From: Prevotella melaninogenica
GTDB taxonomy: Bacteria > Bacteroidota > Bacteroidia > Bacteroidales > Bacteroidaceae
Reading direction: 5' to 3'
Length of the DNA stretch: 64,000 nt
Assembly (NCBI RefSeq): GCF_018127925.1
Contig: NZ_CP072347.1
Coordinates: forward strand, 498,501 to 562,500
The notes beneath the pieces are model-generated. The model was not told the origin of the DNA and searched no databases. It was given only the letters and a program-made list of their open reading frames with translations. Made by a program: the position numbers and the translations under genes. Each line of letters begins with the position of its first letter. The stretch's first letter is position 1. This document shows, in pieces, positions 6,672-63,131 of the stretch.

Positions 6672-6788
6672 GTGGAATATCGGAAACGAATAGCAAGGAA
6701 AAGAGAAGAAACGACCCAAGTTGATGTCCTTTTTGAGTTAATAATCAATAAAAGCGTTAAATCTTCACCTTTTAGAATGTGCAATTAA
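6672..6788 (+). pseudogene. Possible N-terminal fragment of a tyrosine integrase
   Basis: The frame begins at GTG 6672 and encodes VEYRKRIARKREETTQVDVL before a stop at 6786. The basic start followed by a beta-strand-like VDVLFEL recalls the N-terminal arm-binding region of Bacteroidetes tyrosine recombinases. A TACCTTTG promoter-like site lies about 40 bp upstream. It is far too short to be functional, and the resemblance is weak. Confidence 0.25.
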
Positions 6789-25389: not shown

Positions 25390-25527
25390 TATATTTGCAA
25401 TCACTTAGAGCTAATATTTCATTGATAGTTAAACTATTTCTACAAAATGAGAACGTCAGATTATATAAGTATATGTCAAGGAGGCATTGTTCGATATTGT
25501 TTGTCCCTTTTCTACAAAGGATGAACA
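25390..25527 (+). promoter_or_regulatory. Promoter and structured leader of the two-RT operon
   Basis: TATATTTG at 25390-25397 matches the Bacteroidetes -7 box; the implied start near 25403 leaves a leader of about 200 nt before drt3a. The leader contains a hairpin of about 12 bp at 25498-25527 (TGTTTGTCCCTTT with AAAGGATGAACA, one bulge, loop TCTAC). The region 25036-25389 upstream is AT-rich with no gene seen. The leader may be an RNA component or simply a 5' UTR. Confidence 0.6.
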
Positions 25528-25599
25528 GTGTTTTGACAGTCTTTTTAATGAACATATAATAAAATGTCTATAAACTGCAACTACCCCAATAAAGTATAA

Positions 25600-26790
25600 A
25601 TGTATTCGCTATTATTTTCACCACATAACTTATATTCTTGTACTACACAGAGTGAGCGCAGGAATGGTAGACTTAATAAGGAAGAGTTCGCAGAGAAAGT
25701 CGACTTCATAATTGGTGAAAAAATAAATGAAGGGACATATTATTTTAATATAAAACAAAGATGGGATTTATTTCTTAATAATCATCCCAAAGATTCTATG
25801 GAATTTCTTTGTCAAGATTTGGTGTTACGTAAATTGTATAATAATATTAAACGTATATATGGAATAGAGCAGTCTAATCGTAATCAGATAGTCAAGCAGA
25901 TGGTCTCTTTGTTGAGAGAAGAGGCTTGTAAGTGGGTTATTCGCCTTGACATACGGCATTTTTATGAGTCTATTGAACGTGAGAGACTTATTAATCGTTT
26001 TGTAGAAGATGGACGTTTGAATTATCAGTCAATATATCTTCTTAAAAATCTCTTTTCTAATTCAAGTATTTCCAAAATAAAAGGATTACCTCGTGGGTTG
26101 AATATAAGTTCTGTGATGTCTGAACTTTATATGAAGTATTTCGATTTGGAAATCCGCAGAATGGATGGCGTATTCTATTATGCGCGATTTGTTGATGATA
26201 TAATAATCTTTTGTAGTAGTAGTAATTCACAAGAGAATGTTTGGACGAAAGTTCCTGAATTATTGGATAAACTGGGATTGCAACTTAATGAATCTAAATC
26301 ATACAAGGGTGATAATGATCAGGAAGATTTAAATCTTACCTATCTTGGTTATACTTTTATTCTTAAAAAAAATAATGATTTAGAAATAGCAATAGCAGAT
26401 AAGAAAGTAAATGTTATAAAGACTCGTATAACAAAGAGTTTTGTGCGATTTGCTAAAGATGGAAATTTTATCAAGTTGAAGAATAGAATTAAATTTCTTA
26501 CGGGCAATATCACTATTAATAATCCTTCTACTTTATTACCAATTAGAATTGGAATCTATTTTAATTATAATATGATAACTTCAAGGGCTTCATTATATGA
26601 GCTTGATAAGTACTATCAGAAATTACTGCATTGTAGAACGGGACGTTTGGGATTAAAATTAAAGAAAAAATTTAACGCAAATCAAGTAGAAGAGTTATCT
26701 AAATATTCTTTTGTTTTTGGTTTTGAAAAGCATGTAAGACATTATTTTACATCTGCAACGATTGCGGACATAACTAATTGCTGGCGATGA
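25600..26790 (+). CDS. drt3a: Antiviral reverse transcriptase Drt3a-like (UG3-type)
   Basis: A 396-residue reverse transcriptase without additional domains. The palm motifs are visible: motif A with the metal-binding Asp117 in VIRLDIRHFYESI, the GLPRGLNIS motif at about 162-170, and the catalytic FVDD at 197-200 (YARFVDDIIIF). Unlike group II intron RTs it lacks maturase and endonuclease domains, and unlike typical retrons it is paired with a second RT. The stop overlaps the start of that second RT by 4 nt (ATGA). Two adjacent RTs of about 400 and 640 residues with a structured RNA match DRT type 3 (UG3 + UG8), a known antiphage system. The A+T-rich codon use differs from the sugar cluster before it and suggests transfer. 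Assignment is by architecture and motifs, not by alignment. Confidence 0.85.
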   Translation: MYSLLFSPHNLYSCTTQSERRNGRLNKEEFAEKVDFIIGEKINEGTYYFNIKQRWDLFLNNHPKDSMEFLCQDLVLRKLYNNIKRIYGIEQSNRNQIVKQMVSLLREEACKWVIRLDIRHFYESIERERLINRFVEDGRLNYQSIYLLKNLFSNSSISKIKGLPRGLNISSVMSELYMKYFDLEIRRMDGVFYYARFVDDIIIFCSSSNSQENVWTKVPELLDKLGLQLNESKSYKGDNDQEDLNLTYLGYTFILKKNNDLEIAIADKKVNVIKTRITKSFVRFAKDGNFIKLKNRIKFLTGNITINNPSTLLPIRIGIYFNYNMITSRASLYELDKYYQKLLHCRTGRLGLKLKKKFNANQVEELSKYSFVFGFEKHVRHYFTSATIADITNCWR

Positions 26791-28697
26791 GTAAGAATAT
26801 AGATTTAAACAATAAATATAGAGTTCTTCTAACAGAAGTCTTACCATATGAGATACCTTTAATGCTTGATAATGAAGGGTTCTATCTTAATATGCAAGAT
26901 AAAGAATTACAAGATATATTCTATCAGACTTTTCAAGGGAAACTTAAAAAGTGGACAATCCCTTTCGATTACTCTGTTCGTAAATATGGTGGAGATAAGA
27001 GTCGTAAACTTAGTTTAATGCATCCCTATATTCAGGTAGAATGCGCAAAATTTTACGAAAGTCATGATTATTATATGCTCTCACTTTGTAGTAATAGCCC
27101 TTTTTCTATTCGCTATATATCAGAGCGTGCAAAATGTATATTCAAGGTAGAAGAATCGGAAACTAAGGAGGAGGAGAACCAGAACCGTATAGAGATATTA
27201 GATGAAGAAGTAGATAAATTATATCGTTCGTATTTCAGTTATAAGCGTTACGATATGATGTATAAGTTTTTTACCAGTGGTGATTATCTTCGCTTGGAAC
27301 AAAAGTATTCCCATCTGATGAAGATGGACATTGCTCGTTGCTTCTATCATATATATACTCATACTATTGCATGGGCTGTTAAGGGCAAAAAACAAGCTAA
27401 AGAGCTAATCGGAAAAGAAACCTTTGAAAATGCCTTTGACACCCTTATGCAGCATGCAAACTACAATGAAACGAATGGAATAATTGTTGGTCCAGAGATC
27501 TCTCGAATATTTGCAGAAGTTATATTGCAACGTATTGATATAAATGTGGTTAATCGCCTAAAGCAATCACCATATTCATTAACGCTCGGTCGTGATTATG
27601 AAGTTAGAAGATATATTGATGACCATTATATTTATGCAAATAATGAAGAAACACTTTGCTCTATATTAGATGTTTACAAAGATGAACTTCAGTTGTATAA
27701 GCTTTATATTAACGAGAGTAAACTTGAGTTTTTAAAGCGACCTTTTGTTTCAGATGTTGCAGTTGCAAAAAAAGAACTTGCAGAACTAAAAAATAGTATT
27801 TCTGAGCGGTGGTTAGTGAAGGATGAAAAAGGCAAATATAAACATTCTATAAAGAATGAGATGAGTTCTTTTTCATCCATCGTAAATAAATTTTGTTCAA
27901 TTACATATAGATATAATCAAAAATATGGAACACTAAATCGATATTTTCTTACATTGATAAGCTCACAGCTATGTGAAGAATCTAATAAAGAATACGCCAG
28001 TGAGGCAACGGGTAAACTACTTTTGATGTATCTTGAAGTTGCCTTTTATGTTTTCTCTTTGGATATGAATGTATCTGCATCTATAAAGCTGTGCCGCATA
28101 CTATATGAACTTCATAAATGGGCAGAGAAATGTATTGACAAAACAATATTACCAGAATTAGAGAATAGAATTTTTCGTGAAATAAAACGATGTTTGGATA
28201 TTTATGAGGTTAATAAAAAAAACGATGAGATTAATCTTGAAGCGCTTAATTTATTACTATGCCTCAGTCGTATAATGCAAACATCCATATCGCGAACACA
28301 ATTACTTAGACTCTTTAATATAAATAAGGGAGGTATAGACGAATATAAACAACAAAACTACTTCCAGATATGTACTCTATTATATATTATAGGTTGGGAT
28401 AAAACCTATGATGATATCAAAAAAAATATCTTAGAAGAAATAAAACGTCGAGTAAAAGAAGAGAATTCGATGTGGCACGCAGATACAGTAATGCTTTTTT
28501 TTGATGCTATAGTTTGCCCTTTTTTTGAAGAGAGTGAGAGGAAAGAGATTTTGAAAGAAGTATGTGGTAATCCAGCATCAGTAGATAAAAAACTAGAGTT
28601 ATACAATAAAACAGGGAGATGGTTTTTCAATTGGGATAAAAGATGTGATTTGTCAAACTTATTATCTAAGAAAGAATACCATTCTCCATACGAGTAA
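26787..28697 (+). CDS. drt3b: Antiviral reverse transcriptase Drt3b-like (UG8-type)
   Basis: From ATG 26787 the protein has 636 residues. A TTG three codons earlier is also in frame, but the ATG forms the ATGA overlap with drt3a and is preferred. The RT palm is recognisable: Asp181 in KMDIARCFYHIYTH, TNGIIVGPEISRIFAEVI near 229-246 in place of the usual PQG-type motif, and catalytic YIDD at 276-279 (RRYIDDHYIY). The N-terminal 150 residues and the helical C-terminal 300 residues are not known domains by eye. In DRT3 both RTs are required for defence. The gene ends 10 bp before the structured RNA described next. Codon use is as A+T-rich as drt3a, so the pair probably moved together. Confidence 0.85.
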   Translation: MSKNIDLNNKYRVLLTEVLPYEIPLMLDNEGFYLNMQDKELQDIFYQTFQGKLKKWTIPFDYSVRKYGGDKSRKLSLMHPYIQVECAKFYESHDYYMLSLCSNSPFSIRYISERAKCIFKVEESETKEEENQNRIEILDEEVDKLYRSYFSYKRYDMMYKFFTSGDYLRLEQKYSHLMKMDIARCFYHIYTHTIAWAVKGKKQAKELIGKETFENAFDTLMQHANYNETNGIIVGPEISRIFAEVILQRIDINVVNRLKQSPYSLTLGRDYEVRRYIDDHYIYANNEETLCSILDVYKDELQLYKLYINESKLEFLKRPFVSDVAVAKKELAELKNSISERWLVKDEKGKYKHSIKNEMSSFSSIVNKFCSITYRYNQKYGTLNRYFLTLISSQLCEESNKEYASEATGKLLLMYLEVAFYVFSLDMNVSASIKLCRILYELHKWAEKCIDKTILPELENRIFREIKRCLDIYEVNKKNDEINLEALNLLLCLSRIMQTSISRTQLLRLFNINKGGIDEYKQQNYFQICTLLYIIGWDKTYDDIKKNILEEIKRRVKEENSMWHADTVMLFFDAIVCPFFEESERKEILKEVCGNPASVDKKLELYNKTGRWFFNWDKRCDLSNLLSKKEYHSPYE

Positions 28698-28707
28698 TAT
28701 TTATATA

Positions 28708-28918
28708 CGGAATCAGCGAAAGCCCGAAGAGACAGTTCTGCGGAAGTAATCCATGATCAAGATAACGACCAAAGAATATACATTCAATTAGAGTTACTGA
28801 CTTAATTTAGAACTTGAGAGTTCTAAGTTATAGTTCAATGAATGCATTTGTAACAAAGAGAGAATGAGAGGATTTATCCTCACACACTAATGACCCTCAG
28901 AGGCTGTAGTTGATTCCG
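28708..28918 (+). ncRNA. Candidate DRT3 non-coding RNA with ACACAC template-like motif
   Basis: A 211-nt segment closed by an 8-bp stem (CGGAATCA at 28708-28715 with TGATTCCG at 28911-28918). Inside are a GCGAAAGC tetraloop hairpin (28716-28723), a 7-bp hairpin TTAGAAC/GTTCTAA (28807-28813/28820-28826), and GAGGA-TTTA-TCCTC (28868-28881). The last is directly followed by unpaired ACACAC (28882-28887). A T-run follows the closing stem. No reading frame is present. DRT3 systems are known to need an ncRNA. I recall, without being able to check, reports that its ACAC repeat templates alternating GT DNA. Position beside two RTs, closed fold and motif make this a good candidate. Confidence 0.75.
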
Positions 28919-28936
28919 TTTTATATATTTGAATAG

Positions 28937-29290
28937 TTGGTAATAGATCAAGTGGAAATATATGTTAGAAGAAGTAATAGTGAGGGATTGAAGCAAGCCT
29001 ATCCAAACTCGGAGGGGCGTATCCGCCACATCTTTAAGCATCAAGTGTATGGACTGGCTCCAACGGAGTGTATCTATCGTATTGCACTACGTTATATTCT
29101 TGGCTTTGATGAAGACATCCATATCTCAGAGGCTGACCATCATTTGCGACAAGCTGATAGTCTGCCAGCTGCTAAGGCTGGAACATTGGAGGAGTTCTTG
29201 GACGAGGTGTTTAAAGCTCAATTAGTTCTTATAGGAATAAACTCTCACCAACTAACTTTTGAAGTTGCTGTCACTGCTGTCAGGCTTTAG
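28937..29290 (+). pseudogene. Fragment of an unrecognised protein
   Basis: A frame of 117 codons begins only with TTG and has no internal ATG. The conserved-looking part is GRIRHIFKHQVYGLAPTECI through AAKAGTLEEFLDEVFKA; the last 20 residues come from a dispersed repeat. A TATATTTG box at 28924-28931 lies just upstream. I do not recognise the family. It is most likely the 3' part of a gene whose 5' end was replaced when the RT locus inserted. Confidence 0.4.
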
Positions 29291-29592: not shown

Positions 29593-31700
29593 AACCCAAG
29601 TTTAACTGGCAAAATTATTTTTCATAAATTTTCGGGATGTTTTGTGTAGTATCAATTTGATAAATGGTTGATAATCAAGTATAGGGTATTGTAACGAGGA
29701 GTAAAATCTGATTTGTAGGACACAGCCATATCAAAAATATTTTGTTACTTTGCACTCATGCACGCAAATGTACAGACACGATTCAACCCTGCCACAGGGG
29801 ACATGGCTCCTTATTATCGCATCAAGGAGTCATATCGTGACGTGCAGGGTCATGTACATTCGCTAATTCTGTTGAACATCGGGTTCGAACCTTCACTTAC
29901 TGCTGTACAGGTTCGAAAAATTGCATACGCTCTTACCGAACGCTTCAAAAATAGAAGTACACCCTCGCTTTTCAAAGAACATCTTGACGGTCTTACTCCT
30001 ATTGAACAGGCAAAGGCTGACGAATGGTGGATCCGTATGGAGAAAGAAGGTGGAATCGATCGGTTTAATAAGGAAGAGCAGAAGTCGCTGAGAAAATATG
30101 AGAACTATATTGACCTTGAGACGGCAAACTATACTGACGCAAGGAATGTTGGTGCAGAGTGGCTCTGCAAGCAGACAATAGACAAGCTACAATTAGAGGG
30201 TTTTCTGCGCAAAAACGGCTGGACGGAGAATGCGATACACACGGCTTTGTCAGCATTGATTGTTCGCACGGTATATGCAGTTTCTGAACGTTCATCTTAT
30301 TATTATTTGCGCGATAACTCGGCTGCCGCTGAACTTTATAGTGGAGTTCCTGGCTGGACACCAGGAATCAATTCTCTGTATAAAATCACTGATAAATTAT
30401 ATGAACTAAAGGAACAGTTAGAGCGTCATTTGTGCAGCGTTACTGACGATCTCTTTAATATAGACAACAAGTTGATGCTCTTCGACTTAACCAACTTCTA
30501 TTTCGAGGGTAGCAAGCGTAATAGCGATAAAGCCAAGTTCGGTCGTTCAAAAGAAAAGCGCTCTGATTGTAAGCTACTTGTACTTGCATTATGTATCAAT
30601 AAAGAAGGTTTTATACGTTATTCTTCTATCTTGGAGGGTAATACAGCAGATTCCAAGTCTCTACCCAATATGATTGATACGCTGGCAAAGAGGAATCCAT
30701 CAAGAACCAAAGATACGCTTGTTGTCATGGATGCAGGTGTTGCCACAGAAGAGAACTTGGAGTTAATAAAGAAAAAGGGTTACAATTATCTCTGCGTATC
30801 CCGTACGCAAATGAAGGACTATACGCTCAGTGATGATAACAAGAGTGTTACGGTAATGGATGCCCGTCGGCAGAAGATAACGCTGAAAGAGGTTAAGACA
30901 GAGGATGATAAGGATTATTATCTCGAAATAACATCTCCTTCGAAAGCTATGACAGAGTCGTCCATGAACAGGGTTTGGAGAGAGCGTTTTGAGATGGAAC
31001 TGCAGAGGATAAACGAAGGAATCTCCAAGAAAGGTGGAACAAAAACCTATGAAAAGGTTGTTGAACGTACAGGACGTGCCATACAGAAGTACCCTTCTAT
31101 AGCGAAGTTCTACCAGATAAGCTACATAAAAAATGAGAAGAAGCCCAAGCAGATGCTGCGTGTAGACTGGGAGATAAAAGACCTCTCGGCAATGGAATCT
31201 GGTCATGGAGTCTATTTCCTCCGCAGCAATGTCAGGACACTTTCTGAACGTGTAACATGGGAATACTACAATCTCATTCGTGAGATAGAATGTACGAACA
31301 GACAACTAAAGAATGATCTCAACCTCCGTCCTATCTATCATCAGAAAGATGAGCGAAGCGACGCACACCTTTTCTTCGGTTTACTAGCCTACTGGGTGGT
31401 AAACACTATCCGTTGTCAATTAAAACGAGAAGGAGAATCCTGTTACTGGACTGAGATTGTACGACGTATGAGCATCCAAAAGCTCGTCACCACAAAAGGG
31501 AAGAATCCATTAGGTGAAACCATCGAGATGCGCCAGTGCAGTAGTCCTTCGAAGCAAGCAAAACAGATATACGATAAGTTGAACTTAAAACACTCACCAT
31601 TCAAAAAGAATAAAATTTGTAGGACACAGAGCCCATAAGAAAAATGAGGAAAGTACGGTGACAGTAACAATTAGGCGAAAGTGGGTGTTAAACTTGGGTT
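29593..31700 (+). mobile_element. IS1634-family insertion sequence
   Basis: The 14-bp inverted ends AACCCAAGTTTAAC (29593-29606) and GTTAAACTTGGGTT (31687-31700) enclose one transposase gene. AGTT is present on both sides (29589-29592 and 31701-31704) as a short target duplication. Comparison with the repeat at 33380-33400 (CGCAGTTAGC) supports insertion at this point. Confidence 0.85.
29758..31638 (+). CDS. IS1634-family transposase
   Basis: A 626-residue DDE transposase of the IS4 superfamily, IS1634 type. The catalytic core shows Asp in MLFDLTNFYFEG near 242, the second Asp in VVMDAGVATEENL near 324, and the C-terminal region EIECTNRQLKNDLNLRPIYH with the glutamate. HLFFGLLAYWVV precedes the tail. 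The frame is complete and fills the element, so it may be active. It sits directly after the two-RT locus. Confidence 0.92.
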   Translation: MHANVQTRFNPATGDMAPYYRIKESYRDVQGHVHSLILLNIGFEPSLTAVQVRKIAYALTERFKNRSTPSLFKEHLDGLTPIEQAKADEWWIRMEKEGGIDRFNKEEQKSLRKYENYIDLETANYTDARNVGAEWLCKQTIDKLQLEGFLRKNGWTENAIHTALSALIVRTVYAVSERSSYYYLRDNSAAAELYSGVPGWTPGINSLYKITDKLYELKEQLERHLCSVTDDLFNIDNKLMLFDLTNFYFEGSKRNSDKAKFGRSKEKRSDCKLLVLALCINKEGFIRYSSILEGNTADSKSLPNMIDTLAKRNPSRTKDTLVVMDAGVATEENLELIKKKGYNYLCVSRTQMKDYTLSDDNKSVTVMDARRQKITLKEVKTEDDKDYYLEITSPSKAMTESSMNRVWRERFEMELQRINEGISKKGGTKTYEKVVERTGRAIQKYPSIAKFYQISYIKNEKKPKQMLRVDWEIKDLSAMESGHGVYFLRSNVRTLSERVTWEYYNLIREIECTNRQLKNDLNLRPIYHQKDERSDAHLFFGLLAYWVVNTIRCQLKREGESCYWTEIVRRMSIQKLVTTKGKNPLGETIEMRQCSSPSKQAKQIYDKLNLKHSPFKKNKICRTQSP

Positions 31701-61662: not shown

Positions 61663-62507
61663 TTTTTATCTTTTTGTCCCTTACTTGAGCCGAAATTAAT
61701 TAGATTGATGAGGTCAACACCCTCTGCATGGAAAATGCATCCACGAGCATTGTCGCTCATAGGTAGTTCATTCTTAGTTGCAGCCTCTTTATAACCTTCT
61801 GGCACCACACTTGTAATCTCGTACAAGAACTCAGCACCGGCACCAGTAGAAGATATTGCTGACTTGTCATTGGGGAACACAACCTTTGTTCCATTTTCCG
61901 AACCAACCTCAGCGTTGAATATCAATACGTTGCCATCCTCACAAGAAAGGTTCATTATTTCGTTTGCAACGTCAATGGTTTCACGCATGCAAATACTTAT
62001 ATCCTGACCATTATAATACGGAATTCCGTCGGAGATGTTGATGATAACAGGTGCGGGATTCTGTGGCTTGTCTTCCATCCATTTGGAGACAAGTTCTTTA
62101 GCCATCTCAAAGGCACCCTTCATGTTTGTAGTGCCATCCTTGTCAATGGCTTCTACCCAAACTGGCATCTTTGTGTCTATTTCAATGATTCCGCCAGCAC
62201 CATCAGGCATCTTCTTCTTCACAGAGTCTATTCTTACAGGATTACTATACAAATCCTCTAGGTATCCAGAACAAATCTCCTTCACATTATGGTTATATCC
62301 AATAACGGTGATAAAACAACGGTTCTTTGGCTTTTCTCCGTTGAAATTCTTCTGGATAATCTCATTGATAACTCGGTTGATTACCTTTGAGGCGAAAGAT
62401 GTCCTTGTCTCTCCTTCGTAAGGACTCATCATAGAGCCGGACTGATCTATCAAGATGATAAGGTAGCCTGGTGTTGCGGAACTCCATTGCATGTCGTTTG
62501 CTGCCAT
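61659..62507 (-). CDS. VWA-domain protein (TerY-like)
   Basis: A 282-residue von Willebrand factor A protein with a complete metal ion-dependent adhesion site: DQSGSMM at 21-27, the Thr in DGTTNMKGAF near 125, and the Asp in INISDGIPYY near 157. It is first in the operon. TerY-like VWA proteins act as binding scaffolds in stress and defence systems and are regulated by phosphorylation. A 54-codon frame lies 90 bp upstream on the same strand. Confidence 0.85.
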   Translation of the reverse strand: MAANDMQWSSATPGYLIILIDQSGSMMSPYEGETRTSFASKVINRVINEIIQKNFNGEKPKNRCFITVIGYNHNVKEICSGYLEDLYSNPVRIDSVKKKMPDGAGGIIEIDTKMPVWVEAIDKDGTTNMKGAFEMAKELVSKWMEDKPQNPAPVIINISDGIPYYNGQDISICMRETIDVANEIMNLSCEDGNVLIFNAEVGSENGTKVVFPNDKSAISSTGAGAEFLYEITSVVPEGYKEAATKNELPMSDNARGCIFHAEGVDLINLINFGSSKGQKDKK

Positions 62508-63131
62508 AGGTAGTAAATTTATTCCGGCTGCTCCTGTTCAGATAGTTAAGTTTAGATTAAGTTACATACAAGCGCAAAAACGTGGAGCTACGTCCTGTCA
62601 CTCGTTCCACACTATAAGGCTTCTAGCATTGCCCTGATTCTCGAAACGAGCAACGCCATTAGCCCCACGCTGATGTAGATATATAGTACTTCCACGCCCT
62701 GCCAAATAAATGATAGGACACAATGAGGGTTGTATGTAGTACACCCAGTGAAGCATTGACATTGCTTTTTTTTGACAATCAGTTTGAACTTTGCAAGAAT
62801 TCTATAGCGTCAAATCCAAAGCATCAGTAAACGCCTTTGCCTATGTATGCGCCCATCCTTATTCCGCTCCTGCTGTCTTGCGACAGAGGCTCGGAGTGAG
62901 GTAAGCGGTCGTAAAATTAAGCAAAATCAGACAAACCCACAAAAAAAATGTAGAGAAATGTGTGTCGGAGTTAAAAAATGACTGACAGTATCAGCAAGAT
63001 AATACCCAATATCTACCATATTGTATATTTGAGCGCTACAAGGCGTCAATCTTTCAATAACCAGAAAGATTCCCATTCCCCACATTTCAAAGAATTCATC
63101 AACGTATGATTAATTTTAGCGAAACATAAGG
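62508..63131. other. Gene-poor leader region of the VWA operon, with a doubtful 54-codon frame
   Basis: No confident gene. A minus-strand frame (62598-62762, MSMLHWVYYIQPSLCPIIYL ... RSLIVWNE) lies just upstream of the VWA gene and could be a small operon gene or part of a degraded one. The family is unknown. The stretch near 62830-62920 is GC-richer with TCGGAGTGAGG-type words but no frame. Confidence 0.3.

Follow-up and report, generated by a model that had tools for sequence, protein, structure and literature searches.

Does the pair of adjacent reverse transcriptase (RT) genes in a 64,000-nucleotide stretch of the Prevotella melaninogenica genome (contig NZ_CP072347.1, positions 498,501 to 562,500; here called the window) form a whole DRT type 3 (DRT3) defence system, and where does such a system keep the RNA that it copies? 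An earlier note, made from the letters of this DNA, had read the locus as a UG3 and a UG8 RT followed by a template-like RNA. We hold with high confidence, on comparison of the sequence with its relatives, that the DRT3 system of the window is complete and probably functional. Established at this locus are the identities of both genes, the integrity of the catalytic and gate residues, the priming tyrosine, the covarying RNA structure, and the template. The mechanism itself is already known (PMC13174585), and the locus is therefore counted as a known type of system; the new part is the set of layouts that the RNA gene takes across the family. No description of a Prevotella DRT3 was found in the literature searched. 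Other loci are given by our own labels (L002 and so on), and the parts of the window locus are these:

25588 to 28928, plus strand: DRT3 cassette (drt3a, drt3b, RNA), the blastn extent common to relatives, whose flanks differ
25600 to 26790, plus strand: drt3a, RNA-templated RT (UG3), 396 aa, from NF041747, PADLOC, and PDB 9z6y
26188 to 26199, plus strand: Drt3a catalytic motif FVDD, from the sequence
26787 to 28697, plus strand: drt3b, protein-templated and protein-primed RT (UG8), 636 aa, from NF041748, PADLOC, and PDB
26850 to 26852, plus strand: E22 codon, dA gate (E22 of EcoDRT3b; E26 in the 9z6y chain), from alignments
27504 to 27506, plus strand: R240 codon, dC gate (R241 of EcoDRT3b; R253 in the 9z6y chain), from alignments
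27612 to 27623, plus strand: Drt3b catalytic motif YIDD, from sequence and alignment
28689 to 28691, plus strand: Y635 codon, presumed priming tyrosine (Y666 of EcoDRT3b), from alignment A1
28707 to 28919, plus strand: DRT3 noncoding RNA, from fold and covariation, with bounds set by the closing stem rather than by transcript ends
28707 to 28724, plus strand: 5' arm of the closing stem, from complementarity (helix 1)
28868 to 28881, plus strand: hairpin GAGGA-UUUA-UCCUC abutting the 5' side of the template, its probable 5' boundary (helix 9 of alignment A2)
28882 to 28887, plus strand: ACACAC, template for poly(TG), from A2 and the family count
28902 to 28919, plus strand: 3' arm of the closing stem, from complementarity (helix 1)

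Drt3a scores 364.5 bits against NF041747 (equivalog cut-off 200) and Drt3b 598.2 bits against NF041748 (cut-off 350). The best PADLOC matches are Drt3a for the first RT (2.1e-107) and Drt3b for the second, and the assignment to UG3 and UG8 made in the earlier note holds: neither protein falls outside these classes. Among solved structures, those closest in sequence are PDB 9z6y, which has both a Drt3a and a Drt3b chain, and the chain of 26cz, with E = 6.4e-38 for Drt3a against its counterpart in 9z6y, and 3.8e-97 and 2.2e-83 for Drt3b against 26cz and 9z6y. DRT3 is also characterised by a hexameric Drt3b with an alpha-solenoid domain; here the comparison with 26cz and 9z6y covers aligned sequence. 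Both genes are full length with intact active sites, and the FVDD and YIDD motifs and the coupling of the genes through an ATGA overlap (26787-26790) are all as had been read from the letters. E22 and R240 lie within the DRT3b motifs LPYE and GPEISRIFAE of alignment A1, made up of 10 DRT3b, in which Y635 is invariant.

For the RNA region 28698-28930, the predicted folding energy is -60.7 kcal/mol (z = -5.17), a value that 0/200 shuffles reach, and the arms of its closing stem, 18 nt each, are 83% complementary, with 9 perfect pairs (equalled in 8/300 shuffles). Alignment A2 holds nine RNA sequences, namely the window and eight relatives, including the RNAs of L005 and L006 despite their interrupted drt3b genes. 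Its consensus fold has 43 pairs, with 90.8% of cells paired compared to 36-46% in slid versions, although the structure was derived from the same alignment and is thereby favoured. Double changes are seen in 17/43 pairs among these mutually related sequences, where shuffles average 7.5 and 0/500 are as high. Helix 1, the closing stem, has 10 pairs in A2 with 88.9% of cells paired, while helix 9, the hairpin just 5' of ACACAC, has 97.2% paired and double changes in 1/4 pairs. The template is exact in 8/9 rows, with GCACAC in L002; the context CACACACUAAUGACC is found in 7/9 rows, the window among them, and in L005 the template is followed by UAUUGACC. A stem-closed RNA had been proposed at 28708-28918, with ACACAC after a 5-bp tetraloop hairpin, and both elements are found there and conserved among the close relatives. 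No Rfam family reaches its gathering threshold in the window.

The extent of the cassette comes from a blastn comparison of the whole window to nine relative loci, of which L003 and L142 lie on one contig. Matches to L002, L003/L142, and L143 span 25588-28928, that to L006 spans 25588-28937, and those to L004 and L008 begin at 25600 and end at 28920-28923. Elsewhere in the window there is a single match, to L008 at 61687-62847. Since the cassette matches and the flanks are not shared, the unit is taken to be drt3a-drt3b-RNA, found at different sites. Of the earlier extent of 25390-28918, the first ~200 bp are absent from the relatives compared, as homology with L002, L003, L006, and L143 begins at 25588; at the 3' end, homology reaches ~28928. 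Within the part left out lies a perfect sigma-70-like TTGACA-16-TATAAT (25533-25560), 40 bp 5' of drt3a. Such a site is unusual for a Bacteroidota promoter. We rejected it as the promoter of the cassette because it is outside the stretch common to relatives.

The chemistry and the abortive outcome proposed here are carried over from E. coli work. According to PMC13174585, an ACACAC loop is the template from which E. coli Drt3a makes poly(TG), and Drt3b produces poly(CA) with no nucleic-acid template, its gates being E22 and R241 and its primer Y666; loss of RecBCD renders DRT3 toxic, and defence requires GreA. The alternating-dinucleotide DNA that the earlier note had mentioned is therefore the published product of E. 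coli DRT3. By analogy, the window Drt3a would bind the RNA encoded 3' of drt3b and repeatedly copy its ACACAC loop into poly(dT-dG), with read-through curbed by the hairpin that immediately precedes the template. Drt3b would prime on its own C-terminal Y635 and, with no nucleic-acid template, alternate dC and dA as chosen by E22 and R240, giving poly(dC-dA). The two strands would then anneal into repeat double-stranded DNA, which a host double-strand-end nuclease would hold low; a phage that blocks this nuclease would let the repeat DNA accumulate, and growth would halt. The host genome has a GreA-type gene and two adjacent genes for a 958 aa AddB-like nuclease and a 1100 aa RecB/AddA-like helicase-nuclease. 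It is possible, by analogy with E. coli, that this AddAB-like pair plays the guard role of RecBCD against the DRT3 product. Because the Prevotella host has AddAB-like end-processing genes, the RecBCD-guard model could be tested in a species other than E. coli.

That a protein, DRT3b, serves as a DNA template is striking among published findings, and a comparison of many loci acts as a natural test of it. If RNA and protein must encode complementary strands, neither can change on its own. In total, 67 full-length DRT3b were collected from genomes, plasmids, phages, E. coli, and virus contigs and reduced to 53 at 90% identity. Partial, interrupted, or contig-end loci were excluded from the 67 (L001, L005, L006, L019, L020, L029, L046, L052, L072, and L076-L079); the DRT3b count also leaves aside the 28/56 virus-contig loci whose A1 profile score is below 150 bits. 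L110 and L112 were added later and stand outside the 53. ACACAC occurs within 300 nt 3' of drt3b in 47/53 non-redundant loci and is the commonest hexamer there, followed by the overlapping CACACA (44/53), while the best unrelated hexamer reaches 25/53. The excluded loci L077 and L079 nevertheless carry a downstream ACACAC. The arginine gate R241 is present in 53/53, and the gate at position 22 is E in 45 and D in 6, with two loci (L023 and L051) unalignable there. Of the six loci that lack a downstream ACACAC, one is L002 and the other five are distant (L026, L035, L036, L037, and L080); all six keep E22 and R241, and no joint change of template and gate residues was seen among the 53. These counts fit the expectation that the two templates are bound to each other. 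Two observations run against a simple matched-template story: the L009/L033 branch has N in place of R71, a third contact, and L040 and L036 have no tyrosine in the last eight residues. The conserved tyrosine sits further inward in L036 and L080. We think it likely that in DRT3 the two templates, ACACAC in the RNA and E22/R241 in the protein, are locked together, while the RNA gene has been re-scaffolded and moved, with downstream-long, compact, and antisense layouts among the outcomes.

Several findings weigh against a complete and working system in the window. The AddAB-like matches score below the NCBIfam equivalog cut-offs. For the RNA, the promoter search was a sigma-70-type scan only, which gave 27 sites in the region compared to a shuffle mean of 26.0, and none was assigned. 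R1, a covariance model of the window-group RNA, finds no match to the RNA of L041 from E. coli up to E = 5, so homology of the RNA to that of the tested E. coli system is argued from position, closing stem, and template only. Searched against 45 sources, a subset of the loci, R1 is strong only on the window, L004, and L007. Its next match (E = 0.029) is elsewhere in the window, a short weak match (E = 0.29) lies near the RNA of L027, and no RNA of another branch was recovered with confidence. As R1 fails across branches while ACACAC and the gates persist, the scaffold cannot be followed with R1 from branch to branch; template and gates are what stays constant. Finally, stop codons in the L006 drt3b and the GCACAC of L002 mean that some members of the family may be decaying.

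This last point bears on the least unlikely alternative, in which the window holds a decayed DRT3 that has lost its defence. Damaged relatives speak for it (stops in L006, a drt3b split by ~650 bp in L005, one template base in L002), as does a DDE transposase gene at 29758-31638, 0.8 kb 3' of the RNA. Against this, the window genes are full length, their catalytic, gate, and priming residues are intact, and so are the template and stems, which makes decay improbable here. Somewhat less credible again is a DRT3 pair whose downstream hairpins are a mere 3' untranslated region or terminator, the working RNA being elsewhere. Stem-rich 3' ends are common, the RNA has no assigned promoter, and in other branches the RNA is apparently elsewhere; yet the 43 pairs covary, ACACAC keeps the same place throughout the window group and lies within 300 nt downstream of 47/53 DRT3b, homology stops roughly at the RNA end, and a scan of 28700-28930 on both strands called no intrinsic terminator. 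Membership of the pair in some other UG/Abi class with a different product, such as an AbiK or DRT4-like RT beside an unrelated RT, is barely conceivable, for the weaker PADLOC matches of Drt3b to Drt6, Drt4, and AbiK trail the Drt3b models by more than 400 bits (the Drt3a models lead by more than 200), E22 and R240 sit within DRT3b motifs, and the template in the RNA is that of DRT3. AbiK and DRT4, single Class 1 RTs with no RNA partner, were likewise set aside as identities for a locus with two RTs and an RNA, where the DRT4 model gives 112.5 bits and its cut-off is 450.

With a complete DRT3 as the preferred reading of the window, the layouts of the RNA gene across the family can be set out. 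The distance from the drt3b stop to the template divides the 47 loci with a downstream ACACAC into a compact set of 24-70 nt and a long set of 91-261 nt, the window having 184 nt. A stem enclosing the template has a mean score of 19.7 over the 47 loci compared to 15.7 in shuffles, with 0/60 shuffle sets as high; taken singly, 19/47 loci reach p <= 0.05. In a tree of 55 proteins, which leaves out L002, L023, and L051 and adds L110, L112, and three outgroup RTs, the 19 compact proteins form one group (97/87), and the window clusters with L007, L004, and L008 among the long loci. One outgroup row falls inside, and L026 and L035, both long branches, are insecurely placed. The three RNA layouts broadly track the protein tree. 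The loci of compact layout are L012-L018, L021, L022, L024, L025, L032, L034, L038, L042, L048, L049, L066, L067, L073, and L074. E. coli strains hold both downstream layouts, long in L040 and L041 and compact in L042 and L043.

The last 15 codons of drt3b show high synonymous conservation in 4/5 compact sets, with 27/732, 34/686, 8/682, and 58/712 overlapping windows of codons as high or higher. It is not high in set B (610/759) or in the window group (385/644). Because of this conservation the compact RNA may start within the final part of drt3b, a reading for which the codons are suggestive only.

The third layout would place the RNA between the genes. L036, L037, L080, L110, and L112 form one clade in the tree (100/100), with the plasmid pair L035 as a long branch outside it, and in all six the RT genes stand 112-289 nt apart; Drt3a and Drt3b are still the leading PADLOC models for both proteins of these gapped pairs. 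The gaps between the RT genes, each with ACACAC or ACACA on the antisense strand, are:

L035, 3757 to 4015, antisense
L036, 3864 to 3988, antisense
L037, 3712 to 4000, antisense
L080, 3797 to 3976, antisense
L110, 3040 to 3218, antisense
L112, 4389 to 4500, antisense

On the strand opposite drt3b, ACACAC is found in 4/6 gaps and ACACA in 6/6, whereas the sense strand has either in 0/6. This pattern was reached in 0/5000 shuffle sets; it was first spotted in L035, L036, L037, and L080, so that L110 (ACACACA) and L112 (only ACACA) are the sole independent checks. The promoter-like score on the antisense strand at the start of drt3b is 12/12 in L037, 11/12 in L036, and 10/12 in L080, L110, and L112 (p 0.001 to 0.061 versus single-letter shuffles), where the sense strand gives only 8-9. 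A score of 10 is met in just 2/45 other DRT3 loci, and L035 reverses the order, with 9 for antisense (p 0.5) and 10 for sense. Terminators were scanned in L035, L036, L037, L080, and L112. In L036 and L080 the 3' end of drt3a carries a minus-strand terminator-like hairpin, and L035 has one beside the flipped drt3a start; in L037 and L112 only plus-strand sites were called. The simplest reading of these sequences is that the gap apparently encodes a template RNA that is antisense to drt3b and driven by a promoter of its own. A sense GUGUGU template for this clade was considered and dropped because of the strand that carries ACACA, the antisense promoter-like scores, and the minus-strand terminator-like sites. 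All records of the antisense layout come from phages, plasmids, and virus contigs. As for an antisense DRT3 RNA in print, PMC13174585, PMC12632851, and PMC13213688 do not use the word "antisense", and in the available part of PMC13314766 its passages concern oligonucleotide drugs, with no antisense DRT3 RNA. The compact and antisense layouts can guide annotators to the RNA where a downstream search fails.

One further locus departs from all three layouts. Immediately upstream of drt3a in L026, at L140:3008-3125, a stem of 8 pairs as judged by eye, or 9 as counted by script, surrounds ACACAACACA; a stem of 9 pairs is equalled in 13/300 shuffles. No relative was found in 164 genomes of its order, itself aside. 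At this single locus the RNA may lie upstream of drt3a with an altered template.

Among named systems, the closest comparison is with EcoDRT3, for which L041 stands in; this E. coli Drt3b of 667 aa has E22, R71, R241, and Y666 at their published numbers, and PDB 26cz is taken to be the EcoDRT3 enzyme by length and numbering. The window shares with EcoDRT3 the gene order, the UG3 and UG8 pairing, and the gate and priming residues (PMC13174585), and with L041 a downstream RNA with a stem around ACACAC. It differs in having only ~32% Drt3b identity to L041, a stop-to-template distance of 184 nt rather than 128 nt, an RNA whose model R1 does not match that of L041, and AddAB-like genes in the host. 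The DRT3 of Deng et al. 2026 (PDB 9z6y/9z6z, as cited in PMC13314766 and PMC13213688) matches in both RT partners, and its E26 and R253 (PMC13213688) align with window E22 and R240, but it is distant in sequence, as the E values of 2.2e-83 for Drt3b and 6.4e-38 for Drt3a indicate. DRT9 and DRT10 (in part after PMC13174585) resemble Drt3a in their loop template and tandem-repeat product, but they use a single Class 2 RT and other templates and are systems distinct from DRT3.

The nearest relatives of the window system are those of Prevotella pallens, P. falsenii, and Bacteroidales metagenome-assembled genomes (L002-L008), which share the gene pair and RNA fold and differ in their flanks. In P. 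pallens ATCC 700821 (L002:6918-7150) the template is one base off, GCACAC, with one extra C nearby, through decay or a draft error; L045, from another genome, has an RNA nearly identical to that of L002 and carries ACACAC. The drt3b of a Paludibacteraceae metagenome-assembled genome is split by ~650 bp (L005:6542-7193) and that of P. falsenii is interrupted by stops (L006:~6731-6770); both loci retain ACACAC and the downstream RNA. Counting the window's own genome, DRT3b is found in 10/299 genomes of the genus at E <= 1e-60 and, at E <= 1e-80, in 13/399 of the family and 6/395 of a phylum-wide draw. In the phylum of L009 it is found in 2/398 genomes at 1e-60, one of them L009's own. Scans of viral contigs with P0002 and with the L036 protein recovered no relatives, and that with the L037 protein returned this protein alone, while alignment queries A1 and A3 did recover relatives. 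A tRNA search of the window found none. Directly 3' of the RNA, at 28937-29290, lies a 117-aa open frame with a TTG start that has no match in Pfam or PHROGs.

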